From: a virus
IMG/VR virus record: IMGVR_UViG_3300047560_001038
Span: 1-61,743 of that record
Reading direction: 5' to 3' (one strand)
DNA: 61,743 bases
A model generated the notes under the pieces. The model saw only the letters and a program-made list of their open reading frames with translations. It made no database searches and was not told the DNA's origin. Made by a program: the position numbers and the translations under genes. Numbering within the stretch: position 1 is the first letter of the stretch; each line of letters opens with the position of its first letter. This document shows, one piece after another, positions 1,743 to 44,644 of this stretch.

Positions 1743-1918
1743 GGTAGATCACCAGGTTCTAACGAAGAACTCTTAATGATCCCATATTGTACAAGAAGGG
1801 CATTAATAACCTTTCTTGATGCTTTGAACTCACGAGCAATCTGTCGTGATGTCTTGCCAAGCTCAACAAACTGTGTTTGGAGCATATTCTGTGTGAGAAT
1901 TGTGTTGTAGTATGTCAT
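1739..1918 (-). CDS. Small helix-turn-helix protein, probably leaderless
   Basis: A 59-aa basic protein. Residues about 20-47 read as a helix-turn-helix: GKTSRQIAREF, a turn, then a recognition helix around SRKVINALLVQYG. The layout is similar to the 52-aa HTH protein at 56096-56254, and the two look like paralogs. Its ATG lies only six bases downstream of a full promoter (TTGATT-N17-TATACT), so the message is predicted to begin at the start codon. A role as a small DNA-binding regulator is likely; the target is unknown. Confidence 0.65.
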   Translation of the reverse strand: MTYYNTILTQNMLQTQFVELGKTSRQIAREFKASRKVINALLVQYGIIKSSSLEPGDLP

Positions 1919-1924
1919 GTTTAT

Positions 1925-1953
1925 AGTATAGCAAATTTTCGGAGGTAAATCAA
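1925..1953 (-). promoter_or_regulatory. Leftward sigma70-type promoter, leaderless
   Basis: On the minus strand, TTGATT (1953-1948), a 17-base spacer and TATACT (1930-1925), followed after six bases by ATG. This geometry predicts transcription starting at or next to the A of the start codon. Confidence 0.65.
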
Positions 1954-1981
1954 TCAGCTTCTGCTGATGGCGTAGCCGTAT

Positions 1982-2179
1982 TTACCATTTATGCTCAGGA
2001 CATCTAGCTCTCTCTAACTTAGTCTTCATACGCATAAAACACTTACATACGGTACATGTTTGAGAACTTTTGTGAAACAATGGACATTCCTGACATATCG
2101 CCAAACGCTCCTGTTGTAATTCTTTGGTACTACGCTTTTCATTTGGATTTAGTAGGTCCCAAGGTCGCACTTCGCTCAT
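1982..2179 (-). CDS. Small zinc-finger protein
   Basis: 65 aa from the ATG at 2179; the in-frame ATG at 2197 is upstream of the predicted transcription start and is rejected. The C-terminal half has Cys pairs in the order CQEC, CTVC, KC and a final Cys-Pro before a KW end, like the small Cys-rich proteins common in phages of many hosts that end CPxxKW. Probably binds zinc. The -10 lies six bases before the ATG, again predicting a leaderless message. Confidence 0.65.
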   Translation of the reverse strand: MSEVRPWDLLNPNEKRSTKELQQERLAICQECPLFHKSSQTCTVCKCFMRMKTKLERARCPEHKW

Positions 2180-2185
2180 ATGTCT

Positions 2186-2191
2186 ATTATA
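2186..2191 (-). promoter_or_regulatory. -10 element of a leaderless leftward promoter
   Basis: TATAAT on the minus strand (2191-2186), six bases from the ATG at 2179. No clear -35. Confidence 0.45.
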
Positions 2192-2415
2192 CAACAATTA
2201 AGTTTTTCGCCGTACAACCCAGTGTTTTGCTATATTTTAAAAACCCAACATTTAAGATTTTCTACACATATTTCCCCATATGGTGTTTGGTACAAAGCGG
2301 TGTTTGGGGATGGGGTGTTTGGTTACTCCACGCCGCCGATTTTTCGCTTCGCTCAAATGACACTACATCTAGTTATTGTCGAAGAACTTTACATCAAGAT
2401 ATTGTAAAAGTAGTT
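2192..2415. other. Non-coding gap between divergent genes
   Basis: AT-rich spacer between the leftward zinc-finger gene and the rightward holin-like gene. Open frames on both strands have poor composition and no ribosome-binding site. It contains repeated GGTGTTTGG words near 2282-2322 and nothing else I can name. Confidence 0.4.
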
Positions 2416-2421
2416 TATAAT
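2416..2421 (+). promoter_or_regulatory. -10 element before the holin-like gene
   Basis: TATAAT nine bases before the ATG at 2431, so at most a 2-3 base leader. No convincing -35. Confidence 0.45.
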
Positions 2422-2430
2422 TGAAACATC

Positions 2431-2700
2431 ATGGATTTTGCAACTTTACAAATGATCTTTGGAATCACAATTAGTATTGGTACTGTTATTACTCTTGTTG
2501 CGTCAGGTGTAAAGTGGTTAGTAAAACATTACTTTGATGATATTAAAAAAGAGCTTAAGCCCAATAGTGGTTCTTCACTAAAAGATCAAGTGACAAGACT
2601 TGAAAAGGAAATGGCTCAAGCAGAAGCACTTCGTAAAGAAATGAATACAAAAATAGATCACATGTATGAGATTCTACTTGATTTTGTATCCAAGAAGTAA
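2431..2700 (+). CDS. Holin-like membrane protein
   Basis: 89 aa. Residues 5-31 form one hydrophobic segment (ITISIGTVITLVASGVKWLV), followed by a basic stretch and, from about residue 50, a Glu/Lys/Met coiled coil. It lies directly upstream of the secreted endolysin, the usual place for a holin or lysis accessory protein. One membrane span with a cytoplasmic coiled coil fits a class III holin or a holin-like partner. The sequence alone does not prove pore formation. It ends before a good intrinsic terminator, so it is transcribed separately from the endolysin. Confidence 0.55.
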   Translation: MDFATLQMIFGITISIGTVITLVASGVKWLVKHYFDDIKKELKPNSGSSLKDQVTRLEKEMAQAEALRKEMNTKIDHMYEILLDFVSKK

Positions 2701-2713
2701 TATACTTGTCCTT

Positions 2714-2736
2714 AAGCCTTCGGCTTTGATTTGTTT
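2714..2736 (+). terminator. Intrinsic terminator after holin-like gene
   Basis: AAGCC (2714-2718), TTC loop, GGCTT (2722-2726), then a T-rich run (TGATTTGTTTC). Compact rho-independent layout. Confidence 0.65.
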
Positions 2737-2779
2737 CTTTAGGGAGACTATCTTGTAGGTTGTTTTTCTTACTTCCTCT

Positions 2780-2811
2780 CCCCCCTACCCCCCAAGTTAT
2801 ATAAATATAAC
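2780..2811. other. C-tract and inverted repeat in lysis control region
   Basis: Two runs of six C (2780-2785, 2788-2793) separated by TA give paired G6 runs on the minus strand, able in principle to form a G-quadruplex. Directly after is an inverted repeat GTTATA (2796-2801) / TATAAC (2806-2811). The 280 bases between 2700 and 2981 hold no gene. Confidence 0.4.
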
Positions 2812-2841
2812 AAGAAAATGGAACCTTGTCAAGTCCATTGT

Positions 2842-2877
2842 CGTAACTTTTCGTAAATATACGTAACATTTCGTAAC
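2842..2877. repeat. Four 10-bp iterons (CGTAA)
   Basis: CGTAAC, CGTAAA, CGTAAC and CGTAAC begin at 2842, 2852, 2862 and 2872, exactly ten bases apart, so all face the same side of the helix. They end about 30 bases upstream of the endolysin promoter. This is typical of a cooperative regulator binding array. CGTAAA words also occur near the DnaA boxes at the left end. Confidence 0.6.
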
Positions 2878-2905
2878 AATTGGTATTTGCGTATTTCTTA
2901 AACTC

Positions 2906-2914
2906 TGATATACT
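2906..2914 (+). promoter_or_regulatory. Extended -10 promoter of endolysin (TGATATACT)
   Basis: TGn extended -10 with no good -35. The following bases read GGTGT, as also after the promoter at 20124. Confidence 0.55.
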
Positions 2915-2950
2915 GGTGTAACAACACCTTAACCTATAAGGTGTTTTTCT
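2915..2950 (+). terminator. Attenuator-like hairpins in endolysin leader
   Basis: AACACCTT (2923-2930) pairs with AAGGTGTT (2938-2945) and runs into a T-rich tract (TTTTTCTCTTT), giving an intrinsic terminator only some 30 bases after the promoter. GGTGT (2915-2919) can alternatively pair with ACACC (2924-2928), which would break the terminator stem. A strong ribosome-binding site (GAGGAGGAGG) follows. Confidence 0.55.
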
Positions 2951-2980
2951 CTTTATAAAAGAGGAGGAGGTATCTGAAAT

Positions 2981-3676
2981 ATGAAAACAAATCCTAGAGT
3001 AGTAAAGAGCTTTTTAACAAGTTCTATAGTTTCATTTATATTGTTTGGCACTTCATTTTGTGGAGTGTCAAATGCAAATGCAGAGTCTGAAGACTTTAGC
3101 ATTTCTAGGTCAGTCTATAGTGAGGCTGAGGTACGAGAGGCCATCCAGTCTGCGAGGGATGAATACAACGCAGAATATAACAAAATATATAAGCAAGTAG
3201 TTCAAGACGAAATGAACAGAATTGCAGATCCAAACTCAACTCAATCAAAGTTTGTCAAATTTGCATTGCAGTTTGAAGGAACACCATATTGGTATGGGGG
3301 ATCAACTCCATCTGGTTTTGATTGTTCTGGATTTGTAGGATATGTCATTAAGCATGAACTAGGAATTGATGTTAGACACTCTGCTTCTTCACAGATGCAA
3401 TTAGGTGTTAAGGTATCAGATCCACTACCTGGCGATCTTATAGGCTGGGGATGGGGTAATTATTTTCACCACGTTGGTATTTACATTGGCGACGGTAAAG
3501 AAATAGATGCTCTGAATCCATACCGTGATCTATATGTTCGTGATGTAAAAACAATGACAGCATGGATGGGAAAACCAACCTATGTCAGAATAATTGAAAA
3601 GAACAGAAACTTCAATGCAGATAGAATTACAAAAAGAATCATGGATAATGGTTTTGCGTTTACATTTGCACAATAG
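2981..3676 (+). CDS. Secreted NlpC/P60 endolysin
   Basis: 231 aa. Residues 1-34 form a signal peptide: basic start, hydrophobic core, and an ANA-E cleavage site. Residues about 44-82 are a charged helical linker. From about residue 90 to the end is an NlpC/P60 cysteine peptidase domain: YGG and FDCSGFV with catalytic Cys115, then HHVGIYIG with catalytic His163/164, and GDL just before it. Such enzymes cut peptide stems of peptidoglycan. With its own signal it can leave the cell through the Sec route, so the holin may only trigger or assist. A virion-associated role is less likely given the signal peptide. Confidence 0.85.
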   Translation: MKTNPRVVKSFLTSSIVSFILFGTSFCGVSNANAESEDFSISRSVYSEAEVREAIQSARDEYNAEYNKIYKQVVQDEMNRIADPNSTQSKFVKFALQFEGTPYWYGGSTPSGFDCSGFVGYVIKHELGIDVRHSASSQMQLGVKVSDPLPGDLIGWGWGNYFHHVGIYIGDGKEIDALNPYRDLYVRDVKTMTAWMGKPTYVRIIEKNRNFNADRITKRIMDNGFAFTFAQ

Positions 3677-3680
3677 TTTC

Positions 3681-3689
3681 TGATATAAT
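3681..3689 (+). promoter_or_regulatory. Extended -10 (TGATATAAT) directly before a hairpin
   Basis: Five bases after the endolysin stop. The next element is a hairpin with T-rich tail, so this promoter would make a short RNA unless read through. Confidence 0.45.
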
Positions 3690-3691
3690 AT

Positions 3692-3751
3692 AAAGGACTG
3701 GTGCCTAGATATGTCTCTCATACCCACCGATCTAGGCATCAGTCTTTCTTT
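3692..3751 (+). terminator. Strong hairpin terminator after endolysin; possible short RNA
   Basis: The arm at 3692-3710 pairs with 3730-3747 (one bulge, one G-U), an 18-base-pair stem ending in CTTTCTTTAA. It terminates the endolysin message. Because an extended -10 lies just upstream, it could also be the body of a roughly 55-base RNA. CACCGAT in the loop side can instead pair with ATCGGTG at 3757-3763 next to the following promoter. Confidence 0.7.
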
Positions 3752-3761
3752 AATTAATCGG

Positions 3762-3770
3762 TGTTATAAT
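3762..3770 (+). promoter_or_regulatory. Extended -10 (TGTTATAAT), leaderless gene
   Basis: Five bases before the ATG at 3776; no -35. Confidence 0.55.
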
Positions 3771-3775
3771 TAAGT

Positions 3776-4144
3776 ATGCCATTATCAGAGTTTTTTGGAT
3801 CCGATCCTGCACGTATTGTTTGGAAAATTGTCCGTGGAGACACAGCAACAATTGCAGTAGATTTTCTTAATAACGATGAAACTGGCTTTGACTGCACAGG
3901 ATGGGATTATGCTTCAATTGCATATAATCTCAAGACAGATGAAGAATATGAGCTAGAGGTTTCTGCAGAAGGACACTCAGTTGCAATTACAGCACCAGCA
4001 GATATGACTGCAGAGTGGGGGAGCAACTATGGTCCTGTTGTGGCGGAACTTCTATTCGATCTTCAGGTTGACACAGGATCAGAAATCTGGACACCAGTTG
4101 TTGGAACTATTATTGTTTCTGGTGATGTCGGAGGTAGCCTGTAA
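3776..4144 (+). CDS. Fibre-cassette structural protein (BppU-like)
   Basis: 122 aa, acidic, predicted all-beta. The stretch WKIVRGDTATIAVDFLNND matches the pattern W.vvRGD(S/T)A...v in the 133-aa protein at 12114-12515, so the two are paralogs heading related cassettes. The W...GDT start resembles the N-terminal domains of baseplate upper proteins that anchor receptor-binding parts. Predicted leaderless. Overlaps the next gene by one base (TAATG). The role in linking fibres to the baseplate is inference. Confidence 0.6.
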   Translation: MPLSEFFGSDPARIVWKIVRGDTATIAVDFLNNDETGFDCTGWDYASIAYNLKTDEEYELEVSAEGHSVAITAPADMTAEWGSNYGPVVAELLFDLQVDTGSEIWTPVVGTIIVSGDVGGSL

Positions 4145-4260
4145 TGGCTGTCGTAAAAGTATCTGATATGAATACAAGTCGTCCACCACTTGTCAGAGTA
4201 ACCATTGGAAAAACAGTCACTGACTTTAAGAAAACCAATCTATCAAAGATCTATAAATAG
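4144..4260 (+). CDS. 38-aa protein between fibre genes
   Basis: Starts on TAATG shared with the previous stop, so translation is coupled. Basic, with RPPLVRVTIGK in the middle. In the second cassette the same position holds a 103-aa gene (12515-12826) beginning in a similar way, so this may be a shortened counterpart. No function recognised. Confidence 0.6.
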   Translation: MAVVKVSDMNTSRPPLVRVTIGKTVTDFKKTNLSKIYK

Positions 4261-4264
4261 ATTA

Positions 4265-4273
4265 TGATATAAT
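4265..4273 (+). promoter_or_regulatory. Extended -10 promoter (TGATATAAT)
   Basis: 15 bases before the ATG at 4289, which also has a GGTGA ribosome-binding site. No -35. Confidence 0.55.
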
Positions 4274-4288
4274 TTTATTGGTGACAAA

Positions 4289-4999
4289 ATGACAGAATCA
4301 ATAGGCGGAGCATACTCAGTAATCATACCATCGCTAGACGATGCTGCTGATATTCAGGTAGCCTTAAAGTACCTTCACTATGGTCAAGAAACTGCTTGGA
4401 CTACAAAGCCAGAAGGAAACACCAGTATTGCTGGATACCTTTATACAATTGAGCAAACACTAGACAACATTACTTCTGTTGGAACAATTACTTCTGGCAC
4501 TTGGAATGGTAGCGTAATTGCTGGTGCTTATGGTGGTACTGGAATTGCAAATACAGGAAAAACTATTACCCTTGGCGGAAACCTACAAACAGGTGCTGCA
4601 TTAAACATTGATACAACATCAGCAGAGAATGACGATGTTCTTGTTTATGATTCTGGAACGTCAACCTGGAAACCAGGTAAGAACAGATCAATCAACGATA
4701 TTCATGAGAATACTGATAACTATACCTTAGCACTTACAGATCAAAATGATCTTGTCAAAATGACAAAATCTGTTGCAGTTACACTTACAGTTCCAAAGAA
4801 CTCGTCTGTTGCATTCCCAATCAGAACAGAAATTAACATTGTACAATCTGGCGATGGTCAGGTGACTATTTCGCCAGTAGATGGAGACGTTACTATTCAC
4901 GGTACTCCAGGACTTAAGCTTCGTGATAAGTGGTCACTTGTTACCCTGATCAAAATTGACACTAACGAATGGATAGCGACAGGAGACCTTGCCTCCTAA
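4289..4999 (+). CDS. Tail fibre protein with C-terminal knob domain
   Basis: 236 aa. The N-terminal third is fibre-like (LKYLHYGQETAW, Gly/Thr/Asn-rich repeats), the middle has a GTGIANTGKT collar-like motif, and the last ~95 residues are a beta domain beginning DNYTLALTDQNDLVKM and ending WIATGDLAS. The same C-terminal domain closes the 612-aa fibre at 14717-16555. This domain is frequent at the tips of phage fibres and may fold as a trimer for receptor contact. Stop overlaps the next start (TAATG). Confidence 0.75.
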   Translation: MTESIGGAYSVIIPSLDDAADIQVALKYLHYGQETAWTTKPEGNTSIAGYLYTIEQTLDNITSVGTITSGTWNGSVIAGAYGGTGIANTGKTITLGGNLQTGAALNIDTTSAENDDVLVYDSGTSTWKPGKNRSINDIHENTDNYTLALTDQNDLVKMTKSVAVTLTVPKNSSVAFPIRTEINIVQSGDGQVTISPVDGDVTIHGTPGLKLRDKWSLVTLIKIDTNEWIATGDLAS

Positions 5000-7900
5000 T
5001 GCCTATTCTCGGAATTACTGCCAGTGCTGTAGTAGCAGCCTATAAAATGGTTGTTGCTACAATTGGGTCACGCATTTTTACATCATACAACGGAACAGAC
5101 ATTTCATATGGGAATACACCAAGTTCGTATAAGGTAGAGGCAGTTAATGGAACATGGGTAAGTGCTAATGCAGCAACCTACAAGGGTGGGACCATTGCTA
5201 ATGCACAAAACTTTATTTCTTATACTTCTGCACTATATTATCAATCAACCGACGGTGTGACTTGGAGTAGTGGGATACTTCCAAATACTGTTGGTTCAAT
5301 AATGGATATGAAATATAATTCAAATTTAGGAAAAACAGTACTATTGCAGGGATCAACATCACCACGAGCAATTTATGAATCAACAGATTTAATTACATGG
5401 ACAACAACTGTTACTGGAATAGCAAACACAACATACAAGGCTATATTACAAGACAACAATACATATATAGCTCAGCAATCTGGAAAGCTAGTTAGTTGGA
5501 TATCATCTGGTGGTACATGGGTAACACTATCATCTACAACTCTTTCTCAGACTGTAAATGAAATGCTTTATGTTAATGACGGTAATATCTATACTGTTGG
5601 ATATGCCCCACATATAGCAAAAGTACAGCATGTTGGTGGAACAATGTCATGGACAACATTTGCAGACTATCCAGGCGGTATTGGCGGAGCTGGAGTATCT
5701 AACGTACAGGTAATGTCAATAAAATATGGGAATGGAAGATATGTAGCACCATATCTTGACACATCAGAAGATGCTATTGGTGCAGTATCATCAACAGATG
5801 GCGTAACGTGGGTATCAGCATGGATTGGTGCTGGAGCAGCACTTCCTGGATCTGCAGTATCTGTTAGTAACTGCTTTGCATTTGAATTTTATAACGGATT
5901 GTTTTATTCTGCTGGTTATGACGTTAATACAGATTCCATAGCAATATTCACATCACTGGATGGAATTACATGGATTCCTGGAAACTCTTTTTCTTCATAT
6001 TTGCCTAGTTCTGGGGCAGATGCAGATGCTATGGGGTCAATTGTGTTTAAGGATAATGTTGCCCTAGCAGTATATAATCCATCTGCTGGTAGCTCACAAC
6101 TATACCTATCTAGTCAGGCAAACACAATATCTCCATCTATAGCCACAACATCTTTGTCATGGATAACAACTTCTCTAGCATCCAGTTCATCAATTGCCGA
6201 TGAAGATTATAATACTGGATGGTATGATAAATACCTAAATTCTCCAATCAGACATTTTTCTACAAGTACAACAGACTATCTCGCATATAGTAATGGATTA
6301 TCGTGGGTAACTATAATGAGTCGTGACATATCAAATATGTTTGGGACATATCTGTACAATGGTTCAAGACATGTTGTTGTATTTCAAAAAGCAAGTGATC
6401 AGCCAATATACTCAACAGATGGAATTTATTGGTTAACAGCAAGTGGATATACAGGTGCTCATTCTGTATCAACTAATTTGCCAGCATCTACCGTTAAAGC
6501 AGCAGCAAGCTCAACACACTTTATAGTTGGTTCACGTGGTTCTGGTAGCACTGGTGGCACAAGAATGGTAATAAGTACTGACGGTGCTGTATGGACAAGC
6601 CTTTCACTACCAGGAGTTACCTGGGGATTTAGCACTGAGCCCATAGATGTTATATATGCAAATGGATTTTGGACAATCCTTCTTGAGAATGGGAGGGTAT
6701 ATACTTCAACAGATACTACAACATGGACAAGCTCAGCTCCAGGACTTACTTTATCAGACACAGTATCACGCAAAAATGGACTAGTATCAGACAACTCTTA
6801 TATTTACGCAATTAGCAGAAGCTCTACTGCTGGCCTAGCTGTCCCTATGTTCAGATCAACTGATGCAATAACTTGGACAACATATGCTTCAGCTGCATAT
6901 GGTAGCTTTAGAGATATTGTAAAAGCTGGAGACACCTGGTATTCTTCGGTAACAAATAGCGGAAAACTGTATGTATCTACAGACGCAACAACATGGACAA
7001 GTGTTGGAGTTGGTGCAGATACATTTATCGATTCAACATACTCGTCTCTATTTACTGATGGAAAAGACTTATTCTTTGTTGGAGCTGACGGACTTGTAAA
7101 ACAAGCAGAAGTCTCTAGTCAGAATCAACTTACAGGCTTTAATGTAAAAGATATTCTTTATACTCCAAAAGAAACATCTGGTTTGTCAAAAGACACATAC
7201 CTTCTTTCTGGAAAAAATCTTCTTAAAGCAAATGAGGCTATGTCTTGGACAAGCGTGATTAATTCTGCGGTATTTGGAAAATATGGAGCAAATAAGGCAG
7301 AGTTTGTAAATTCTAAATTCTATGTTGGTGGAGCAGGTTCAAGAGTCATATACTCAACAGATAGTATTTCATGGTCTCCAATGAAGTCGCATTCAGTAAA
7401 AGACCTGGTGCCAATTGATCAAGCTATAAATCCAACTCCAACAGTTGGAATATCCTATGCAAACTCAACTCTTGGTATTGCAACAGCAAGCAGATTTATG
7501 GATACTGTACAGGACTCAAGATTATTTAGATACCGTTCTGGATATGAAGATACAGATACCTTACAAGAAATCCAGTCTTATAATTTTACAGTGTGGACAA
7601 CATCTGCTGTTGCATCAATTGCTATGCAAGACCTAACTTACCTTGACCACCAAAAACTTTGGGTATCTAATGGAAACTCTGGTGTAATTAAATACTCTAC
7701 CGATTTAATTACTTGGACAACCGTAACAACATCACAACTCGGAACTAATAATACTACAAAGGCAAAAATTATTGGTGGACCACAAAGAGTTAAGTATATT
7801 TATGTTGCTGGAGATTCTGGAAGAATTGTTAGATCAACAAACGGAATTGCTTGGGCTACAGCAACATCAGCAGCTACAACTGCACATGTTAATAGATTTG

Positions 7901-9780
7901 CAGTCTCTGATGATGGTGTAATTGTTGCAGCTGCAGGTGTTGCAGTTCAAGGTGTTGCACATTACGTTAGATCAACAGATGGAACAACGTGGACCACAGG
8001 ACTTATTAGTGCTGCAGGTACAAACGTTCGTACTGGATCAATTGATTATGGTCCATCATATCCAAATGGTCCAAAAGTATTTGCAGTACTAACTGGAACT
8101 GCTGCAGTACCAATTATTAAAAAGTCAACTGATGGAATTACTTGGACTACAACCACTGCAGCAGGTGGCACTACTGAATCAATTGCATACTCAAAAAACA
8201 TTAATCAGTGGGTTGCATCAAATGGATCAGACTTCAAGGCATCAACCGATCTGACAACATGGGTTACACTTATTTCTTCCGTTGGTGGTGCAAATAATCA
8301 AATTAATGAAGTTCCAGGATATATATTGCTTACAAGTGGATCTGCATTAACATATGGAAAGTACTCTACAAATGGTGTGACCTGGACAACATTCTATTTG
8401 CCAACATCTTCATCATTCAGAGGTATTGATGTTGATACTACAAATAAAACAATAGCCATGATGGATAATGTGACAACTGCATATAGAACATCTTTAACAT
8501 GGATAACCAACGTAACATCACTTTCCACAAATACTGATGGCACAAAGCACATAATTGTTGCTAGTGGAACACCATTAAGATCTAGTGATATGGTTGATTG
8601 GACAGATTATGCTTATACATCTGGAGCAATAGTAAATGCCAGAAAAATAAAGTATCTTGGTGGATTATTCATTGGTGCTGGCGGTAATGGAAAATCGTAT
8701 ATTTATAAATCAACAAATGGTTCGGCATGGACTTCTTCGCAACCATCTACTGTTGCAAACTCTGATGGTTCATCAATCGCATATGATGGAACAACATATG
8801 TTGCCACAATTGATAGTGGTGGAACAGCAAACAGTATTTATTATTCAACAAACCTTACAGCATGGACAACCATTACGCTTGCTACAACTCCTGGTCAAGT
8901 AAACGATATTCATTATGATGTAGATAAGTTTGTTTCAGTTACTTCAACTGGAAAGGTGTTCTATTCTACTAATGGAACAACTGGATGGACTGCTGGAACA
9001 TCAAATACTGCATCAGCACTTTACTTTGTTAATAATCAAAATGAACTTGGAACTGGAACAGGATGGATTGCGTCTGGAATAGTATTTAGAACTTCAACAA
9101 ATGGTGTTACTTGGACAACAAGATCTGCACCAACAGCAGGATTCTGGGGTGCAAGTGCTGATGCTATTGGTAGATTTATTTGGAAGAATCAGTTAGTTCT
9201 TGTTGATGGAACAGATAATCTTTTTGCACTAACAACAGACGGAATTACGTGGGATACAACATCGATAGTAGTTGCAAATAAAAATTATCCAGCTATAGAT
9301 AATGCTTTTGCTGCAGGTAATAAAATCTTCTCAGTAGATAAAACAACCAATCCAACTATGACACTTCTTGAGTATACAACAGATGGTACAACTTGGGTTT
9401 CAGTAAGTGCAAGTTGGAGTTCGGCTATAAATGCATCAGTTTATGGTGGAGGCATTTATGTTGGACATAATGCTGGAATTGGATCTGCAAGCAATTCAAG
9501 TTCTACAACTGTAAGATCAGTAAATCCTGGTTTTATTGCACCACAGGTAAATGACCATGCAAATGGAATATATGTTGGAAATGAAGGAATTTATTCAGAT
9601 TCTTCAACATATGGTGGATTACAAAGACTTGTATCTGGTGTATTCTCACATATCTCGTATAATGCAAAAAATGGATATGTTGCAACTGGAAATTCTGCAA
9701 TATATAAATCAACAGATGGCGTTGTGTGGACATCAACCTCAATCTCAACAGCAGGGCAATTCTCAATCGGTGGAGTTTAA
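4999..9780 (+). CDS. Giant Asp-box repeat receptor-binding protein
   Basis: 1593 aa from the coupled ATG at 4999 (an in-frame ATG at 4969 lies inside the previous gene). After a short Ala/Val-rich hydrophobic start, more than twenty copies of an Asp-box-like motif STDGxTW (also STDLITW, STNGVTW, SLDGITW) are spread over the whole length. Asp boxes mark blades of beta-propellers in sialidases and related glycan-binding or cleaving proteins. No sialidase Arg triad or FRIP motif is evident, so binding is more likely than hydrolysis. Probably a chain of propellers forming a long fibre or adhesin. Low charge and high Ser/Thr/Asn make it a good glycosylation target for the adjacent glycosyltransferases. 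Confidence 0.8.
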   Translation: MPILGITASAVVAAYKMVVATIGSRIFTSYNGTDISYGNTPSSYKVEAVNGTWVSANAATYKGGTIANAQNFISYTSALYYQSTDGVTWSSGILPNTVGSIMDMKYNSNLGKTVLLQGSTSPRAIYESTDLITWTTTVTGIANTTYKAILQDNNTYIAQQSGKLVSWISSGGTWVTLSSTTLSQTVNEMLYVNDGNIYTVGYAPHIAKVQHVGGTMSWTTFADYPGGIGGAGVSNVQVMSIKYGNGRYVAPYLDTSEDAIGAVSSTDGVTWVSAWIGAGAALPGSAVSVSNCFAFEFYNGLFYSAGYDVNTDSIAIFTSLDGITWIPGNSFSSYLPSSGADADAMGSIVFKDNVALAVYNPSAGSSQLYLSSQANTISPSIATTSLSWITTSLASSSSIADEDYNTGWYDKYLNSPIRHFSTSTTDYLAYSNGLSWVTIMSRDISNMFGTYLYNGSRHVVVFQKASDQPIYSTDGIYWLTASGYTGAHSVSTNLPASTVKAAASSTHFIVGSRGSGSTGGTRMVISTDGAVWTSLSLPGVTWGFSTEPIDVIYANGFWTILLENGRVYTSTDTTTWTSSAPGLTLSDTVSRKNGLVSDNSYIYAISRSSTAGLAVPMFRSTDAITWTTYASAAYGSFRDIVKAGDTWYSSVTNSGKLYVSTDATTWTSVGVGADTFIDSTYSSLFTDGKDLFFVGADGLVKQAEVSSQNQLTGFNVKDILYTPKETSGLSKDTYLLSGKNLLKANEAMSWTSVINSAVFGKYGANKAEFVNSKFYVGGAGSRVIYSTDSISWSPMKSHSVKDLVPIDQAINPTPTVGISYANSTLGIATASRFMDTVQDSRLFRYRSGYEDTDTLQEIQSYNFTVWTTSAVASIAMQDLTYLDHQKLWVSNGNSGVIKYSTDLITWTTVTTSQLGTNNTTKAKIIGGPQRVKYIYVAGDSGRIVRSTNGIAWATATSAATTAHVNRFAVSDDGVIVAAAGVAVQGVAHYVRSTDGTTWTTGLISAAGTNVRTGSIDYGPSYPNGPKVFAVLTGTAAVPIIKKSTDGITWTTTTAAGGTTESIAYSKNINQWVASNGSDFKASTDLTTWVTLISSVGGANNQINEVPGYILLTSGSALTYGKYSTNGVTWTTFYLPTSSSFRGIDVDTTNKTIAMMDNVTTAYRTSLTWITNVTSLSTNTDGTKHIIVASGTPLRSSDMVDWTDYAYTSGAIVNARKIKYLGGLFIGAGGNGKSYIYKSTNGSAWTSSQPSTVANSDGSSIAYDGTTYVATIDSGGTANSIYYSTNLTAWTTITLATTPGQVNDIHYDVDKFVSVTSTGKVFYSTNGTTGWTAGTSNTASALYFVNNQNELGTGTGWIASGIVFRTSTNGVTWTTRSAPTAGFWGASADAIGRFIWKNQLVLVDGTDNLFALTTDGITWDTTSIVVANKNYPAIDNAFAAGNKIFSVDKTTNPTMTLLEYTTDGTTWVSVSASWSSAINASVYGGGIYVGHNAGIGSASNSSSTTVRSVNPGFIAPQVNDHANGIYVGNEGIYSDSSTYGGLQRLVSGVFSHISYNAKNGYVATGNSAIYKSTDGVVWTSTSISTAGQFSIGGV

Positions 9781-9795
9781 CAATTATTGATTTTG

Positions 9796-9804
9796 TGGTA
9801 TACT
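9796..9804 (+). promoter_or_regulatory. Extended -10 promoter of glycosyltransferase operon (TGGTATACT)
   Basis: 26 bases before the ATG at 9830, with CTAG repeats in the leader and a GGTGGT ribosome-binding region. No strong -35. Confidence 0.5.
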
Positions 9805-9829
9805 AGTTTTCTAGAGAGAAAGCGGTGGT

Positions 9830-12090: not shown

Positions 12091-12095
12091 TATTG

Positions 12096-12104
12096 TGATA
12101 TAAT
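12096..12104 (+). promoter_or_regulatory. Extended -10 promoter (TGATATAAT)
   Basis: Nine bases before the ATG at 12114, so a 2-3 base leader at most; no -35. Confidence 0.55.
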
Positions 12105-12113
12105 TTAAATATC

Positions 12114-12515
12114 ATGGCAACTAGAAAAAATTATGCTGTTGGAAATGTTCCCCCTCTTGTAACATGGACGGTAGTTCGTGGAGACTCTGCATCATTTAGA
12201 GTTTATGTAACAGACGATACAAAGGCAGCATTAGATGTTTCCTTATGGACAATCGATATGGAAATTAAGCGTCCAGATGTTGCACAAACAACTCCAGAAA
12301 TGACAGATGCTGCAACTCTAATTCTTACACTTATTCCAGAGATCACAGATGCAGATGGTCCAGGAGAGTTTACTGTAACACTTGCACCAGAAGAATCTGC
12401 ACTACTTGAGACAGGAGACATCTTCGATATTGAGCTATCACAGGAGTCAACAAGCAGAGTCTGGACTGTTGCTCAGGGTAGCGTTGTAATCATTGAAGAT
12501 GTAACAAACTCCTAA
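12114..12515 (+). CDS. Fibre-cassette structural protein (BppU-like), second copy
   Basis: 133 aa, acidic, all-beta. WTVVRGDSASFRVYVTDD corresponds to WKIVRGDTATIAVDFLNND of the protein at 3776, and both end in a VVGTIIVSG / AQGSVVIIEDV type strand. It heads the second fibre cassette. Likely an anchoring or baseplate-linking protein; overlaps the next gene by one base. Confidence 0.6.
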   Translation: MATRKNYAVGNVPPLVTWTVVRGDSASFRVYVTDDTKAALDVSLWTIDMEIKRPDVAQTTPEMTDAATLILTLIPEITDADGPGEFTVTLAPEESALLETGDIFDIELSQESTSRVWTVAQGSVVIIEDVTNS

Positions 12516-12826: not shown

Positions 12827-12830
12827 CATC

Positions 12831-12839
12831 TGATATAAT
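12831..12839 (+). promoter_or_regulatory. Extended -10 promoter (TGATATAAT)
   Basis: Nine bases before the ATG at 12849; no -35. Confidence 0.55.
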
Positions 12840-12848
12840 TAAAGAGTT

Positions 12849-13286: not shown

Positions 13287-13297
13287 GGAGATAAAAA

Positions 13298-14662: not shown

Positions 14663-14689
14663 TTAGTTAGTCGTCAAGTATTATTAATC

Positions 14690-14698
14690 TGGTATAAT
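14690..14698 (+). promoter_or_regulatory. Extended -10 promoter (TGGTATAAT)
   Basis: 18 bases before the TTG start at 14717, which has an AAGGTGATG ribosome-binding site. No -35. Confidence 0.55.
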
Positions 14699-14716
14699 TT
14701 ACTAAGGTGATGATAC

Positions 14717-16555
14717 TTGGCGACTACTAATAAAAACTTTAAGGTTAAGCACGGTCTTGACGTTAATGGTGAAATAAATATATCCGCAGCAGGTGGAAGT
14801 GAAGGCGGTCAGTTAAATCTTGATAAGCCAGCATCTGGAACTACACTTGCTGGTAATGTCGCTATTGATGTTTATGAAAATAAACTACGTATATTTGAGC
14901 AGGGAGGAACTGCTCGTGGTGCATACATAGATCTAACAGGAACTGCCTCAAGCGTTGGAACCAATCTTATTGCAACATCTGGTGCAATGAACTATGCACA
15001 GCAACAATCTACGAAACAATCTGGTATTTCTGCATCTGGTACAACAATTATCAGTAAATCATTTACAACTAATGGATATCCAGTTCAAGTTTTAGTAACT
15101 GGAGATGCAGAAAACTCTACTGCTGGAGGATGGGTAAAGCTTCAACTATACCGTGATTCAACTGCAATTGGAAAAGTTGTTCACGTAGAAATGTCTTCTG
15201 GATCGGAAAATGTTCCATATGCACTTACAGTTATTGATACACCTGCTGCTGGAACATATGTTTATGCATTAAAGACTGTATCAGTTGTATCTACTGGAAC
15301 AATGAATTTTGGTGAAACTGATGGCCCAGTACTCACACTAATTGAGCTTTCTGGAAGCAAGGGGGCAGACGGTGCAGCTGGGCTATCAGACATCGTTAGT
15401 GATACTACACCACAACTTGGTGGAGACCTTGATACAAATGGTTATGATATTACAGGGCTTAATGCACTAACTCTTGATACTACTCCAACAGGAGTTCCAA
15501 CAGGTGCAGGAGTAATTTCTTGGGATACTGATTTTGATACGCCAGCAATACAGTTAAATACTGCTGTAACACTTCAAGTTGGTCAGGAACACCTGGTTCG
15601 TGTTAAAAACAATAGCAATTCTGTAGCAATTCCAAATGGGGCAGTCGTTATGTTTGCAGGTGCAACTGGTGACACAGTTAAGGTTTCTCCAGCTGTTTCG
15701 ACATCAGCCAATGAACCATATAAGCTTGTTGGTATAGCAACACAAGAAATATCTGCAGATGGATTTGGATTTGTTACACAGTTTGGATTTGTCAATGGAT
15801 TAAATACAAGCTCTTATTCGCTTGGTGACTTGCTATACTCTAATCCATCTTCCCCTGGAGAATTGACTGCTACTCAGCCAACAGCACCAAACTGGACATT
15901 CCCAATAGCAGCAGTTGCAAGAGTTGGTAGTGGTAGTAGCGGAAGAATTCTTGTACGTGCAATTCCTGGAGCACACGTTCATGACCTAATTGATGTAACC
16001 ATTGATTCACCAGCAGACAATGAGATTCTTGCGTGGAACTCTGCAACATCTACATGGATTAATCAAACTGCTGCAGAGGCAGGTCTTCTCACAGCAGAAA
16101 CCGATCCAGTCTTTACCGCTTCAGCAGCACACGGCATTAGTTCTACAGATATAGCCCATTGGAATAGTGCCTATGGTTGGGGAAACCATGCTTCAGCAGG
16201 GTATTTGACAACACTTACTGGAACACTTGATGGATATGCTAAGTATTCAATTGCAGACATTCAGCAAAAAACAACAAGCTATACTCTCGTCATTACAGAT
16301 GCAAATGACATGATTGAGGTAAGCAGTTCGTCTCCAACAACAATCACAGTTCCAACAAATGCTTCGGTAGCATTCCCAACAAAAACTGAAATACATATTC
16401 TTCAAACAGGATCAGGACAAATTACTATTGCTGGAGATACAGGGGTAACAGTAAATGGAACTCCAGGGCTCAACCTCAGAGCACAATGGTCAATGGCTAC
16501 TCTTATCAAGAGAGACACAAATACCTGGCTACTTGTCGGAGACCTTATTGGTTAG
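14717..16555 (+). CDS. Large tail fibre protein
   Basis: 612 aa, TTG start chosen because of AAGGTGATG just upstream and because the product then begins like the 454-aa fibre (TNKNFKVKHGLDVNGE). The middle contains a GSKGADGAAG collagen-like turn and several beta domains. One 39-aa shaft repeat (ETDPVFTASAAHG...GWGNHASAGYLT) precedes the C-terminal ~95-residue knob shared with the 236-aa fibre. Probably a trimeric receptor-binding fibre. Its stop overlaps by 11 bases the convergent gene on the other strand. Confidence 0.75.
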   Translation: MATTNKNFKVKHGLDVNGEINISAAGGSEGGQLNLDKPASGTTLAGNVAIDVYENKLRIFEQGGTARGAYIDLTGTASSVGTNLIATSGAMNYAQQQSTKQSGISASGTTIISKSFTTNGYPVQVLVTGDAENSTAGGWVKLQLYRDSTAIGKVVHVEMSSGSENVPYALTVIDTPAAGTYVYALKTVSVVSTGTMNFGETDGPVLTLIELSGSKGADGAAGLSDIVSDTTPQLGGDLDTNGYDITGLNALTLDTTPTGVPTGAGVISWDTDFDTPAIQLNTAVTLQVGQEHLVRVKNNSNSVAIPNGAVVMFAGATGDTVKVSPAVSTSANEPYKLVGIATQEISADGFGFVTQFGFVNGLNTSSYSLGDLLYSNPSSPGELTATQPTAPNWTFPIAAVARVGSGSSGRILVRAIPGAHVHDLIDVTIDSPADNEILAWNSATSTWINQTAAEAGLLTAETDPVFTASAAHGISSTDIAHWNSAYGWGNHASAGYLTTLTGTLDGYAKYSIADIQQKTTSYTLVITDANDMIEVSSSSPTTITVPTNASVAFPTKTEIHILQTGSGQITIAGDTGVTVNGTPGLNLRAQWSMATLIKRDTNTWLLVGDLIG

Positions 16556-17078
16556 CTTTTTCAATATCAGATTGAACAGCTAAGTCGTAATCTTCTTTTC
16601 TCGTTACGCACAAGATCTCATTGAATGAAAGATCTTCTGCACGATAAACAAGAATCGCCCCATCTTCCTGAGCCATTTCAAAAAGTTCGGAATCTGCAAA
16701 CCAGAAAGAATACTCTTCATTAGCAGTAAATTCATAATCAGCAGTTATTGAGAATAATCCACCATCGCTAAAATTGATAACTGGAACAAACTCATTTGCC
16801 TCAATTACAGGTATGATTGTTGAAAGATTTAGATTTTCTATATTCTTTGCAACAAGTATGTGAGTTGCACCATTAGATTTGGCATATTGAATACCCTGGT
16901 TCCAAGCCTTTGAATTATTGAATGAGTCAACCACAATGTTGTTTATGCCAGGATATTCTGTATATTCATCCTGAAAATGTGCAAAAATTGTTCTCCCTGC
17001 GTAATCGCCAAGGGATTCGACTAGAGAAGAGTAATCTGCGTTCTCTTCAAGTACGCTGTATAGAATCCAAATGTTCAT
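16545..17078 (-). CDS. Divergent glycosyltransferase-like protein on opposite strand
   Basis: 177 aa, the only leftward gene between 2.2 and 61.7 kb. Its plan resembles the N-terminal half of GT2 enzymes: an initial beta strand (NIWILYSVLEE), then NNSKAWNQGIQYAKSNGATHILVAKN, the stretch that in GT2 proteins leads to the DxD; here the position reads KNIEN, so the metal-binding Asp pair is missing. It may be a degenerate or binding-only glycosyltransferase. Predicted leaderless from its own extended -10. Annotation is by pattern only and moderately uncertain. Confidence 0.6.
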   Translation of the reverse strand: MNIWILYSVLEENADYSSLVESLGDYAGRTIFAHFQDEYTEYPGINNIVVDSFNNSKAWNQGIQYAKSNGATHILVAKNIENLNLSTIIPVIEANEFVPVINFSDGGLFSITADYEFTANEEYSFWFADSELFEMAQEDGAILVYRAEDLSFNEILCVTRKEDYDLAVQSDIEKANQ

Positions 17079-17084: not shown

Positions 17085-17093
17085 ATTATATCA
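17085..17093 (-). promoter_or_regulatory. Leftward extended -10 (TGATATAAT), leaderless
   Basis: Six bases before the ATG at 17078; exact match to the commonest motif of the rightward genes. Confidence 0.6.
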
Positions 17094-17104
17094 TGAAGCT
17101 TATA

Positions 17105-17113
17105 TGATAAAAT
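17105..17113 (+). promoter_or_regulatory. Rightward extended -10 (TGATAAAAT)
   Basis: Back to back with the leftward promoter at 17085-17093; 14 bases before the ATG at 17128, which has GGTGA. Confidence 0.5.
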
Positions 17114-20123: not shown

Positions 20124-20132
20124 TGGTATACT
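20124..20132 (+). promoter_or_regulatory. Extended -10 promoter (TGGTATACT), leaderless
   Basis: Seven bases before ATG 20140. The word TATACTGGTGT is shared with the endolysin promoter at 2909-2919. Confidence 0.55.
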
Positions 20133-22135: not shown

Positions 22136-22161
22136 CAATTGTTACAATAAATTAACAATTG
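22136..22161. repeat. Inverted repeat overlapping a -35
   Basis: CAATTGTTA (22136-22144) and TAACAATTG (22153-22161) are a perfect 9-base inverted repeat with 8-base spacing. The right arm contains the TTAACA that fits as -35 for the promoter at 22176. It may be an operator or a weak terminator of the portal message. Confidence 0.55.
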
Positions 22162-22181
22162 CATAAAATATAGTGTATAAT
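22152..22181 (+). promoter_or_regulatory. Promoter of protease/scaffold/capsid genes
   Basis: TTAACA (22152-22157), 18-base spacer, TATAAT (22176-22181), nine bases before ATG 22191. Confidence 0.55.
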
Positions 22182-24612: not shown

Positions 24613-24631
24613 TCTATAGAAGCACTAATGG

Positions 24632-24664
24632 GGGGCAGGGGATAAAACCTCTGCCCCTTATTTA
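24632..24664 (+). terminator. Strong terminator after capsid gene
   Basis: GGGGCAGGGG (24632-24641) pairs with CCTCTGCCCC (24648-24657; one G-U), followed by TTATTT. GC-rich stem in an AT-rich genome. Confidence 0.85.
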
Positions 24665-24670: not shown

Positions 24671-24679
24671 TGATATACT
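24671..24679 (+). promoter_or_regulatory. Extended -10 promoter of connector operon (TGATATACT)
   Basis: 16 bases before ATG 24696, which has a full AGGAGG. No -35. Confidence 0.55.
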
Positions 24680-28365: not shown

Positions 28366-28379
28366 TTTAATAGACATTA

Positions 28380-28412
28380 CTGCCCTGGCTTCGGCTGGGG
28401 CAGTTTTGTTTT
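28380..28412 (+). terminator. Strong terminator after major tail protein
   Basis: CTGCCC (28380-28385) and GGGCAG (28398-28403) flank an inner GC-TTCG-GC tetraloop stem; TTTTGTTTTT follows. Confidence 0.85.
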
Positions 28413-28421
28413 TGGTACAAT
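28413..28421 (+). promoter_or_regulatory. Extended -10 promoter (TGGTACAAT), leaderless
   Basis: Starts at the end of the terminator T-run and lies six bases before ATG 28428; there is no ribosome-binding site. Confidence 0.55.
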
Positions 28422-29126: not shown

Positions 29127-29135
29127 TGCTATAAT
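29127..29135 (+). promoter_or_regulatory. Extended -10 promoter (TGCTATAAT)
   Basis: 25 bases before the TTG start at 29161, which has a full AGGAGG. No -35. Confidence 0.55.
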
Positions 29136-41914: not shown

Positions 41915-42441
41915 TGAGTAATGGAAATAATTCTAACCAGGGGGCAAGCACAACAAGTGGTGTAACAACACCTGTAACACCTACCAGTCCATTCTTACCC
42001 AAGCCACTATACAAGTATGCAGAAAGTGGCATTAGAGTTGCAAGACCAGATATCATTGTTCCAAATGAAGAGCTTTCCGTTGAGGTAATGACGGATCTGA
42101 TCTTTGAAGAGATTGGTGGTCAAGAACTTCTAGAAACATCAAGAGCGGATCTGATTAATAGTTCTGCTAAAAATGTCTACTCTCCAATAACTAATCAGAA
42201 ACAGGTTAACTCACAATTCACTCCAACAAACATTCTTTCATCTCAGGGTGTCATGGCAAAAGCATCACTTGACCTTGAGCAATATATTCCAAAACTAACA
42301 AACTTTATAGAGACAAATGAGAGCGGATTTACAGTATCTTCAGAAGGAAAGCTTGAAATAAAGACAATTAATCTTGAGAACGGAGATATTGTAGAGGTAC
42401 AGGTATGGGGATACAGTGCCAATGATGCTACAATATATTAG
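41914..42441 (+). CDS. Minor tail / baseplate protein
   Basis: 175 aa, one-base overlap with the hub gene. Low-complexity Asn/Ser/Thr/Pro N-terminus of about 30 residues, then a helical region EELSVEVMTDLIFEEIGGQE and an acidic beta end (TINLENGDIVEVQVWGY). Probably a baseplate component; not recognised beyond context. Confidence 0.6.
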   Translation: MSNGNNSNQGASTTSGVTTPVTPTSPFLPKPLYKYAESGIRVARPDIIVPNEELSVEVMTDLIFEEIGGQELLETSRADLINSSAKNVYSPITNQKQVNSQFTPTNILSSQGVMAKASLDLEQYIPKLTNFIETNESGFTVSSEGKLEIKTINLENGDIVEVQVWGYSANDATIY

Positions 42442-42449
42442 GGAGTAAA

Positions 42450-43667
42450 ATGATTACAAATACTGGAAAGTCCATTCTTGGCAAATACCTAATCGGTCAG
42501 GCACCAGCCTATGCCTCATATATTGCTGTTGGTTGTGGTGCAAAGCCATTAGCGTCAACAGATGCATTTGCAGATTATTCGTCAAAGGAAACCCTTGACT
42601 TTGAAATGTTTAGAGTTCCAATTACTTCAAGCGGCTATATCTCGGACGGTAGCACAACAAAGATTGCATTTACTGCAGAACTGCCAACAACTGAGAGATA
42701 TGACATAACAGAGATTGCTCTTTATCCAAGTAGCACAAACCCAATTGCTCAGGGATCAGACAGTAGAATGCTCTACACTTTTACCGAAGTTGAAAACTGG
42801 GAATATCATAATGCAACTGGAACAACAATTGTAACTGCTCCAGGAACTACCATTTCCACAAATAGTGTTATTGACCCTGTTGCCCTACCTAAATCATTTA
42901 TTCTATCATCAAATGATCTTTTGTTTGCAAACGAAGATAGATTAGATACTTATGAGAAACCAAGATTCCTAGAAAATACAATCCTTCTAAACGGAAGCAC
43001 ATCGTCTATTGTCCCAAATAGTGTGACTGGAGAATTTGAGGTTCAGGAAGACGATACTGATGGTCACATTCACGCAACTGGTCAGAACGTAAATTTCGAC
43101 AAGAATACAGCAAATGATGAACTAAAACTTTCTTTCTCTATTATTCCAACAGAATCAACAAACGTTCTTCCAGATAATGTTTATATAGTAATTCAATTTA
43201 CTTCGTCAGAGTCAACGTCTGTTGCTTCAGAATATGCAAAGATGCAGATCATGGTCACATCCGAAGATTTTGCAGACGGAAACTATTTTGTAAAAACAGT
43301 AAAGCTTGGTGGGGGGAAAACCACGGTAGATGGAAATGACTATTATATCGATTCACTATACAAGACATCACAGTTTAGCTGGGCTCAGGTAAGCACTGTA
43401 AAGGTGTACGCATGTGCAATTCGTGACGACGCAAATAGTGCCACCTCACCAGATGTTATTGACGAATTCTACATCGCACTTGATGGACTAAGATTTGAAA
43501 ACAAGACATCGCTCATTGCAAATCCACTCTATGGTCTTGTCGCATATTCTCCAGTTAAAAATGATATTGTTGGTGTTACTCCTGCAACTGGTGGACCAAT
43601 TGAAAAGAGCATTAATAGCAACAACATGATTGAGTTTAGATTTGGATTTGACGTTGGTGGTGCATAG
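42450..43667 (+). CDS. Baseplate / minor tail protein
   Basis: 405 aa with GGGAG ribosome-binding site. Starts ITNTGKSILGKYLIGQAPAY ASYIAVG-like, a start known in phage baseplate proteins that carry a beta scaffold; the rest is beta-rich and acidic. Overlaps the next gene on TAGTG. Role inferred from position. Confidence 0.6.
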   Translation: MITNTGKSILGKYLIGQAPAYASYIAVGCGAKPLASTDAFADYSSKETLDFEMFRVPITSSGYISDGSTTKIAFTAELPTTERYDITEIALYPSSTNPIAQGSDSRMLYTFTEVENWEYHNATGTTIVTAPGTTISTNSVIDPVALPKSFILSSNDLLFANEDRLDTYEKPRFLENTILLNGSTSSIVPNSVTGEFEVQEDDTDGHIHATGQNVNFDKNTANDELKLSFSIIPTESTNVLPDNVYIVIQFTSSESTSVASEYAKMQIMVTSEDFADGNYFVKTVKLGGGKTTVDGNDYYIDSLYKTSQFSWAQVSTVKVYACAIRDDANSATSPDVIDEFYIALDGLRFENKTSLIANPLYGLVAYSPVKNDIVGVTPATGGPIEKSINSNNMIEFRFGFDVGGA

Positions 43668-44167
43668 TGGCACAAGAAATAATCAAAAAGGCTATCGTTC
43701 TTAGAGAAGATCTCCCACCAGTTGGTCCAGAAAATAGCTATCTTGTAAGGTATCGTGTTGTGTCTGAAAAAGGTAATGCTGTGTCCGACTGGTCAATTCC
43801 TGTAGAAGTACAAGACCTACCTCTATCTTTGGTAGACGGAGACATCGATGTTTCTTCTGCAAAAACTGCAATCTCACTTACTTGGGGAGATGCAAATTTA
43901 AGACCATCCTATGATGTATATGTTAGGTTTGGAACTAACTCAGCAGTTGAGGGTGTTGATAGTGCAGAGTGGAAGTCTTGGTTCTATCACGGTACATCTC
44001 CAATCCATACCTACAAGTTCCTAATTCCTTCATCTGGAGATACTGTTCCAGGTAGTGGTGCAAAAAGGGTAGAGGTTCAAATCCAAGTAGCATCATCTGT
44101 AAAAGAACTACCAGAAACAATTATCAACGATACACTAAAAATATACCGTGGATACTCCACCATCTGA
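43667..44167 (+). CDS. Minor tail protein, fibronectin-III-like
   Basis: 166 aa, GTG start overlapping the previous stop. The first ~70 residues (YLVRYRVVSEKGNAVSDWSI) look like a fibronectin type III fold, and a second beta domain follows (ISLTWGDANLRPSYDVYVRF). Such domains on tails bind cell-surface carbohydrate weakly. Its TGA stop overlaps the next promoter. Confidence 0.6.
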   Translation: MAQEIIKKAIVLREDLPPVGPENSYLVRYRVVSEKGNAVSDWSIPVEVQDLPLSLVDGDIDVSSAKTAISLTWGDANLRPSYDVYVRFGTNSAVEGVDSAEWKSWFYHGTSPIHTYKFLIPSSGDTVPGSGAKRVEVQIQVASSVKELPETIINDTLKIYRGYSTI

Positions 44168-44173
44168 TATAAT
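44165..44173 (+). promoter_or_regulatory. Extended -10 (TGATATAAT), leaderless
   Basis: Shares its TGA with the preceding stop codon; six bases before ATG 44180. Confidence 0.6.
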
Positions 44174-44179
44174 TAGGAT

Positions 44180-44644
44180 ATGGCAAAACTACCAATTCCA
44201 CAAAGAGGTCAGCCTATCGACCTTTCGCTGATGTACGATATCATCAATTCAATTAACGAGCTTTATTCCACAGTAAGTCAGCGTGGATCAACATACGCAA
44301 AGCTTGCAACCTCAATGTCTGGTGTTTCTCCAGTAGATCTAAAGGTCAACAACATTAAGCTAGTTACTGGCTACACTGAAATTAGCAATCAGACAATTGC
44401 ATCAAACGCAACCCTGACATTCTCGGCACCATTTGAAACAGCAGCAGACTTCAAGACTCCACCAATTATAAGTGCGACTCTTCAGGCCAATAGCTCGTCT
44501 GCAGCATCTGCAAAGAATGCCACAGTAATTATTACAAACGTTACAACTTCTCGTGTTGAAGGACAGATCAACTTTGGAACTCTGTCACAATCAACCCAGT
44601 TCTCTGGTGCTGTACACATCATTGCTATCGGTCAACCAATGTAG
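44180..44644 (+). CDS. Structural protein, last of the tail module
   Basis: 154 aa, predicted leaderless. N-terminal helix (LSLMYDIINSINELYSTV) then a beta domain (PPIISATLQANSSSA ... ATVIITNVTTSRV ... GAVHIIAIG) resembling the small beta domains of baseplate-attached proteins. Last gene before the regulator and replication genes. Confidence 0.6.
   Translation: MAKLPIPQRGQPIDLSLMYDIINSINELYSTVSQRGSTYAKLATSMSGVSPVDLKVNNIKLVTGYTEISNQTIASNATLTFSAPFETAADFKTPPIISATLQANSSSAASAKNATVIITNVTTSRVEGQINFGTLSQSTQFSGAVHIIAIGQPM

Follow-up and report, generated by a model that had tools for sequence, protein, structure and literature searches.

The 61.7 kb viral fragment IMGVR_UViG_3300047560_001038 (61,743 nucleotides, ~41% GC; analysed over its whole length and called the window here) carries near-consensus extended -10 elements (TGnTATAAT) which mostly lack a -35 hexamer and which, at a subset of genes, lie a few nucleotides before a start codon that has no Shine-Dalgarno (SD) sequence. 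The initial annotation of this DNA had proposed extended -10 promoters of this -35-less kind, with leaderless starts; both were supported at the level of sequence, and they were found to be kept at orthologous genes, in up to 80 relatives each. We consider it likely, at a probability of roughly 85%, that the promoters are real, that they are read by the primary sigma factor of the host (SigA/HrdB type) and that they give rise to leaderless mRNAs.

Extended -10 elements and their spacing to start codons

All 15 motifs reported by the initial annotation were present at the listed positions and on the listed strands. Perfect TGNTATAAT occurred nine times in the window, eight times on the plus strand and once on the minus strand, and 9/9 copies were intergenic, with intergenic DNA making up 3.4 of the 61.7 kb (5.5% of the window). 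The frequency of the motif exceeded that in shuffled intergenic DNA, the comparison on which the annotation had staked its claim: the plus strand held 8 copies against 0.19 expected, and the maximum in 200 dinucleotide shuffles was 1. In the same shuffle test TATAAT alone was enriched (13 vs 3.4 expected) and TTGACA was not (1 vs 1.4); TATAAT allowing one mismatch showed no enrichment in the window. The upstream hexamers were, as had been suggested, unlike TTGACA, with a mean mismatch of 3.53 compared with 3.43 in shuffled sequence (17 sites, spacing 16–18 nt), the main exception in the window being the site at 9796, which has TTAACA at spacing 16. A T stands two bases before the TG in 13/17 window sites; otherwise, a search of the window for a conserved box preceding the -10 revealed none.

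The distances from the -10 to the start codon were also as first described. On the plus strand, the gap is 5 nt between TGTTATAAT (3762..3770) and the ATG at 3776, 6 nt between TGGTACAAT (28413..28421) and ATG 28428 and between TGATATAAT (44165..44173) and ATG 44180, and 7 nt between TGGTATACT (20124..20132) and ATG 20140, all predicted to be leaderless; it is 9 nt between TGATATAAT at 12096..12104 and ATG 12114 and between TGATATAAT at 12831..12839 and ATG 12849, two genes at which relatives mostly have a gap of 6. On the minus strand, a gap of 6 separates TGATATAAT (17085..17093) from the leftward gene 16545–17078, TGCTATACT (1925..1933) from the leftward gene 1739–1918, and TATAAT (2186..2191) from the leftward gene 1982–2179; at this last site the -10 and the gap were given correctly in the annotation, but the TG abuts TATAAT with no spacer base and the motif is therefore not a canonical TGn element. 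Two further leaderless candidates, beyond those listed earlier, precede the head maturation protease gene (TATAAT without TGn at 22176..22181 on the plus strand, gap 9 to ATG 22191, with TTAACA at 22152–22157, 18 nt upstream) and a gene in the replication half (TATAAT without TG at 46935..46940 on the plus strand, gap 5 to ATG 46946).

The remaining extended -10 sites, all on the plus strand (2906, 3681, 4265, 9796, 14690, 17105, 24671 and 29127), are without leaderless geometry, and those that precede genes have a leader, usually with an SD sequence, which the initial annotation had implied by leaving them off its list of short gaps. They comprise TGATATAAT at 4265..4273 (gene 4289), TGGTATACT at 9796..9804 with its TTAACA at 9777 (gene 9830), TGGTATAAT at 14690..14698 (gene 14717), TGATAAAAT at 17105..17113 (gene 17128, with a short leader and a gap of 14, divergent from the 17093 promoter), TGATATACT at 24671..24679 (gene 24696, with SD) and TGCTATAAT at 29127..29135 (gene 29161, with SD).

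In the mechanism we favour, the near-consensus extended -10 (TGnTATAAT) would replace the -35 contact in recognition by the host primary sigma factor, and RNA polymerase would initiate ~7 nt downstream of the -10. A start codon at that spot would place the AUG (rarely GUG) at the very beginning of a leaderless mRNA, which an actinobacterial ribosome could translate without an SD sequence, while a -10 located 16–29 nt upstream would yield an mRNA with a short leader and an SD. Throughout the phage family each gene keeps its own one of the two arrangements, and a terminator immediately before the promoter would insulate some of the units.

Conservation at orthologous genes

PHROG matches in the window identified genes for a portal, a head maturation protease, a capsid-like protein, tail proteins, a DnaB-like helicase, primase, SSB, DNA polymerase, a UvsX-like recombinase, a resolvase, terminase and ribonucleotide reductase. 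The nearest named phages were the Streptomyces phages BillNye and Wakanda (Stanwilliamsviridae), with 56–57% identity in the DNA polymerase and ~53% in the protease; their gene order is similar to that of the window, and the structural and replication core is syntenic and homologous. On this synteny and homology, and not on formal taxonomic placement, we assign the window to a Stanwilliamsviridae-like actinophage, of whose genome it is a fragment. No tRNA genes were found in the 61.7 kb, and an Rfam search of the window gave no match.

Relatives were gathered around the protease, the helicase and gene 12849 (80 loci each), and for each orthologue the 60 nt upstream of the start were scored for the closest -10, taken as TATAAT or as a one-mismatch version with TGn, and for the presence of an SD; for genes 12114 and 12849 a 100 nt sequence was used instead. 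Start codons were picked by rule, and the orthologue counts given below do not represent independent events, since the relatives share ancestry. The intergenic DNA around the conserved promoters has diverged between relatives. Scans for relatives with the lysin (2981) and with gene 17128 returned none that was useful, so that the sites at 2906, 3681, 3762 and 4265 are described from the window. The sole relative of gene 17128 from the scan, contig L286 (IMGVR_UViG_3300043410_000419), encodes a protein identical to the gene 17128 product (100% over 997 amino acids).

In related phages, hundreds in all, the motif was found to stay at the same genes; a comparison with relatives had been recommended at the outset. 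Six groups have a -10 mostly 5–9 nt before the start and no real ribosome-binding site. The -10 was present in 60/60 relatives of gene 20140 (gap 7 in 54, SD in 0), in 79/79 of the protease gene (gaps 4–10, SD in 0), in 33/37 of gene 28428 (gap 5–6, SD in 0), in 76/76 of gene 12114 (gap 6 in 65, TG in all) and in 79/79 of gene 12849 (gap 6 in 72), and all 53 of the 53 relatives of gene 46946 had the leaderless arrangement (gap 5–7, SD in 0). Most SD-like hits in the gene 12114 and 12849 groups fall within the promoter; the gene 12849 group gave 19, which in the displayed sequences are an AAGGAG immediately preceding the -10. Orthologue comparison placed the beginning of protein conservation at the leaderless ATGs. 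There was no TTG among the start codons of the leaderless groups and there were five among the SD groups, a count that is subject to the biased choice of starts and to the shared ancestry of the relatives.

The leadered arrangement was retained in the same way: gene 24696 had a -10 in 33/33 relatives (gap 16–27) with an SD in 33/33, and gene 29161 had a -10 in 37/37 (mostly gap 24–29) with an SD in 36/37. At the capsid gene 77/77 sequences had an SD, and there was practically no promoter. At gene 44180 the -10 was present in 65/66 relatives with a variable gap (1–19), and some orthologues of gene 17128 have a gap of 7 in place of the 14 found in the window. Gene 9830, which is leadered in the window, appears leaderless (gap 7) in a relative (L038/L285), an apparent switch of initiation mode.

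Promoter sub-types could be told apart by the TGn and -35 elements. TGn was present in 88–100% of the sequences in the groups of genes 20140, 28428, 24696, 29161, 42450 and 44180, and the TG fraction was 1.0 for gene 12114, 0.66 for gene 12849, 0.04 for the protease and 0.0 for gene 46946. No -35 signal was detected in the groups of genes 28428, 24696, 29161 and 42450, and genes 20140 and 44180 showed a slight excess. The protease group (loci L002–L081) forms a separate sub-type with a conserved TTAACA-like -35 (z -7.3), TATAAT, no TGn and a short or no leader, while the gene 46946 group has neither TGn nor a -35. The ssb and pol groups combine a near-perfect TTGACA (z -15 and -12) with TGn. 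The layout recurs in two cultured phages of Streptomyces, Wakanda and BillNye, with leaderless starts at orthologous genes. The actinophages phiC31 and TM4, and lambda, gave no comparable spacing peak; the leaderless spacing is therefore not common to all actinophages.

Recognition of the promoters and competing explanations

The initial annotation regarded these elements as a class of late-gene promoters, and this part of its interpretation was not supported by comparison across near-complete genomes. Four near-complete relatives (~115–118 kb, 35% GC) and the window were divided by synteny into a structural block, a replication block and the remaining right arm, with borders that we set ourselves; labels of early and late for these blocks are read from gene content. 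Per 10 kb, perfect TGNTATAAT on the plus strand numbered 1.81 in the structural block, 0.71 in the replication block and 2.09 in the right arm, and the leaderless share of extended -10 sites was 21/51, 1/20 and 43/116, respectively. Over all blocks the gap was exactly 6 in 46/65 leaderless sites, 45 of these being in the structural block and the right arm. The right arm is thus as dense in the motif and as leaderless as the structural block, and gene 46946 is leaderless within the replication half in 53/53 relatives; since the right arm shares both the motif and the leaderless starts, neither marks late genes.

The contrast that had been drawn with TTGACA promoters of the replication half held in one direction only. 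Perfect TTGACA with a good -10 was found twice in the structural block, 11 times in the replication block and 36 times in the right arm, corresponding to 1.0, 13.0 and 15.3 per 100 kb (binomial p = 1e-8 for 2 vs 47), and the positions of these promoters recur between genomes; TTGACA promoters are therefore nearly absent from the structural block, but the extended -10 elements are not confined to it. Examples of the contrasting class in the window, both on the plus strand, are TTGACA-17-TATACT at 45100..45128, upstream of the helicase operon and with an equivalent site in three relatives (G010, G004 and G007), and TTGACA-18-TAAACT at 48104..48133, the ssb promoter, which had 0 TTGACA mismatches in 16 scored relatives. 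In Wakanda the trend was the same but weaker, with 2, 1 and 11 sites in the structural block, replication block and right arm, and a good -35 accompanied 5/13 of its structural promoters.

That AT-rich intergenic DNA yields TATAAT-like strings by chance could be entertained for a window of 41% GC in which TATAAT with one mismatch is not enriched, but we regard this as practically negligible and rejected it on the results of the shuffle tests, on the persistence of the motif in as many as 80 relatives of a group and on the strand asymmetry in the structural blocks, where 38 perfect TGNTATAAT copies were on the plus strand and 2 on the minus strand (0/38 with a -35). A dedicated late promoter class, used by structural genes only and read by a phage sigma factor or RNA polymerase, would account for the strong consensus and for the virtual lack of TTGACA promoters in the structural block. 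It is nonetheless very unlikely: the motif is as frequent in the right arm and has the form of an ordinary SigA extended -10, a search of the 19 family records found no sigma region 2, and sigma region 4 gave no match above the cut-off in those records, only weak sub-threshold helix-turn-helix hits. This explanation was rejected because the same motif and leaderless starts occur in the right arm. The sub-threshold region 4-like matches recur in several relatives (window 56129–56206; Wakanda 58583–58723). With neither a region 2 nor an above-cut-off region 4 found in these records, the promoters are probably read by the primary sigma factor of the host.

It is also improbable that the promoters are real and their mRNAs not leaderless, whether because transcription starts further downstream or because translation begins at an internal, SD-led codon. 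The gap of 9 nt at some genes would suit this explanation, but protein conservation starts at these ATGs, SD sequences are absent in almost all leaderless groups and retained in the SD-led groups, and the peak at a gap of 6 is the expected distance to a transcription start.

A further possibility concerns a phage-encoded WhiB, which in the manner of AsiA could bind sigma region 4, weaken -35 recognition and move RNA polymerase from the TTGACA promoters (early/replication) to the -35-less extended -10 promoters of the structural genes. In each of the 18 family records besides the window fragment, WhiB scored above the cut-off (loci L294–L301; Wakanda 82443–82751); nine WhiB sequences share four Cys, the WGG turn and a Trp near the N terminus, most of them also have LFF, and the phage protein resembles the WhiB7 and WhiB1 structures. 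Known Wbl proteins bind sigmaA region 4 (PMC10245118), and a TTGACA-18-TACAAT promoter lies 638–646 bp upstream of whiB in 4/4 genomes, which, with the 2 structural against 47 other TTGACA promoters, would fit a fuller version in which WhiB made from a TTGACA promoter shuts -35-dependent promoters, including its own, and the structural genes, partly leaderless, take over. We nevertheless consider the switch unlikely, and the fuller version equally so. Extended -10 sites without a -35 are as plentiful in the right arm as in the structural block, Wakanda has WhiB yet a weak partition, WhiB7 activates and does not block (PMC3905903), whiB is common in actinophages (PMC10914622), and a -35 is likewise missing from the leaderless promoters of an actinobacterial metagenome-assembled genome (MAG), considered below, where no phage plays a part. 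Freshwater actinophages are known to have whiB as a marker gene (PMC6802176, PMC10914622), and cultured phages of Nanopelagicales (~39 kb) encode a sigma factor in addition to whiB (PMC10202952).

Use of the host primary sigma factor on leaderless genes would agree with what is described for Actinobacteria. In M. tuberculosis, TANNNT is located 7–12 bp upstream of the transcription start with no -35 motif, and TGN occurs on only 7% of TANNNT sites, which are the strongest promoters (PMC3898074); a survey of genomes puts the share of leaderless genes in Actinobacteria above 20% (PMC3160421), and in mycobacteria an RTG at the 5' end suffices for leaderless translation (PMC4633059). The sole genome-contig match of the capsid was in an actinobacterial MAG (45% GC), in which 29/199 open reading frame starts had TANNNT at a gap of 6 against 3.9 expected; the profile with TATAAT at up to one mismatch showed almost nothing, and the peak appeared with TANNNT. 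The leaderless -10s of the MAG have the form TA(G/A)NNT, without TGn or a -35, and a 16S search of the MAG found none. The MAG suggests the host phylum and does not prove it, and the phage promoters, compared by sequence, appear as a stronger version of its leaderless arrangement. On the best reading, the leaderless organisation would be an actinobacterial habit adopted by the virus, also for several virion genes. Several points weigh against this interpretation: the link to a host is one phage contig binned in one 45% GC actinobacterial MAG, which is weak evidence; the leaderless -10s of the MAG lack TG, so that the phage promoters are not simple copies of those of the host; a gap of 9 (genes 12114 and 12849 and the protease) implies a leader of 2–3 nt and not none; and the relatives are not independent samples.

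Comparison with known systems and neighbouring elements

The phage promoters share with the primary-sigma extended -10 promoters a TGn directly before TATAAT and a -35 that is dispensable there and absent here, but differ in being coupled to putative leaderless starts that are fixed gene by gene over a family. In phage T4, middle promoters depend on AsiA and MotA and have an extended -10 without a -35, beside earlier promoters that are -35-dependent. The coexistence of such a class with a -35-dependent one is common to both systems, but no conserved MotA-like box was seen in the window and a switch protein (WhiB) is hypothetical. Actinobacterial leaderless TANNNT promoters (PMC3898074, PMC3160421) likewise have a -10 ~6 nt before the start, no -35 and no SD, although in the phage the -10 comes close to the TATAAT consensus and in most cases has the TGn that is found on 7% of TANNNT sites in M. 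tuberculosis. A promoter predicted to yield a leaderless transcript is known from another actinophage, at gene 90 of mycobacteriophage Adephagia (PMC11373665), where it concerns a single gene and not a family-wide arrangement. Wakanda and BillNye are alike in synteny, in protease and DNA polymerase identity (53–57%) and in leaderless starts at orthologous genes, but their TGn is less regular and a -35 is more often present, and the left part of Wakanda has 52% GC.

Leaderless initiation is well documented in actinobacterial hosts; no description of a phage family that fixes leaderless starts gene by gene over virion genes was found in the open-licence literature. The cultured Streptomyces relatives make the arrangement directly testable, and the questions raised are whether leaderless translation carries virion protein production and what excludes TTGACA promoters from the structural block. 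For annotation, it is relevant that leaderless starts offer gene finders no SD sequence.

Two of the promoters stand beside conserved terminators. A terminator-like hairpin precedes the gene 28428 promoter in 37/37 relatives (2/25 shuffled) and the gene 24696 promoter in 32/33 (0/25 shuffled). In the window, where the hairpins fold well, these are, both on the plus strand, an intrinsic terminator at 28379..28404, just upstream of the promoter at 28413, and a hairpin at 24628..24662 (-24.4 kcal/mol), after the capsid gene and upstream of the promoter at 24671. Past the capsid gene, and likewise past gene 27691, transcription would thus end and start anew at a conserved junction.

The opposite order was observed at two sites, where extended -10 elements face terminator-like hairpins: TGATATACT at 2906..2914 lies directly upstream of a hairpin at 2923–2945, and TGATATAAT at 3681..3689 directly upstream of one at 3696–3744, with energies of -9.7 and -24.7 kcal/mol and z of about -5 and -7 for the regions 2906–2952 and 3681–3750, respectively. 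Promoters placed directly before hairpins are predicted to give hairpin RNAs of ~30–55 nt unless the terminator is read through. The right-arm minus strand (L304–L327) carries clusters of perfect TTGACA-17/18-TATAAT promoters, perhaps immediate-early. The divergent -10s at 17093 (minus) and 17105 (plus) are 11 bp apart (17085–17113), so that simultaneous occupancy by two polymerases would be impossible, and the promoter at 14690 lies inside an inverted repeat spotted by eye (TTAGTTAGTCGTCAAGTAT ... ATACTTGGCGACTACTAA, window 14665–14740).

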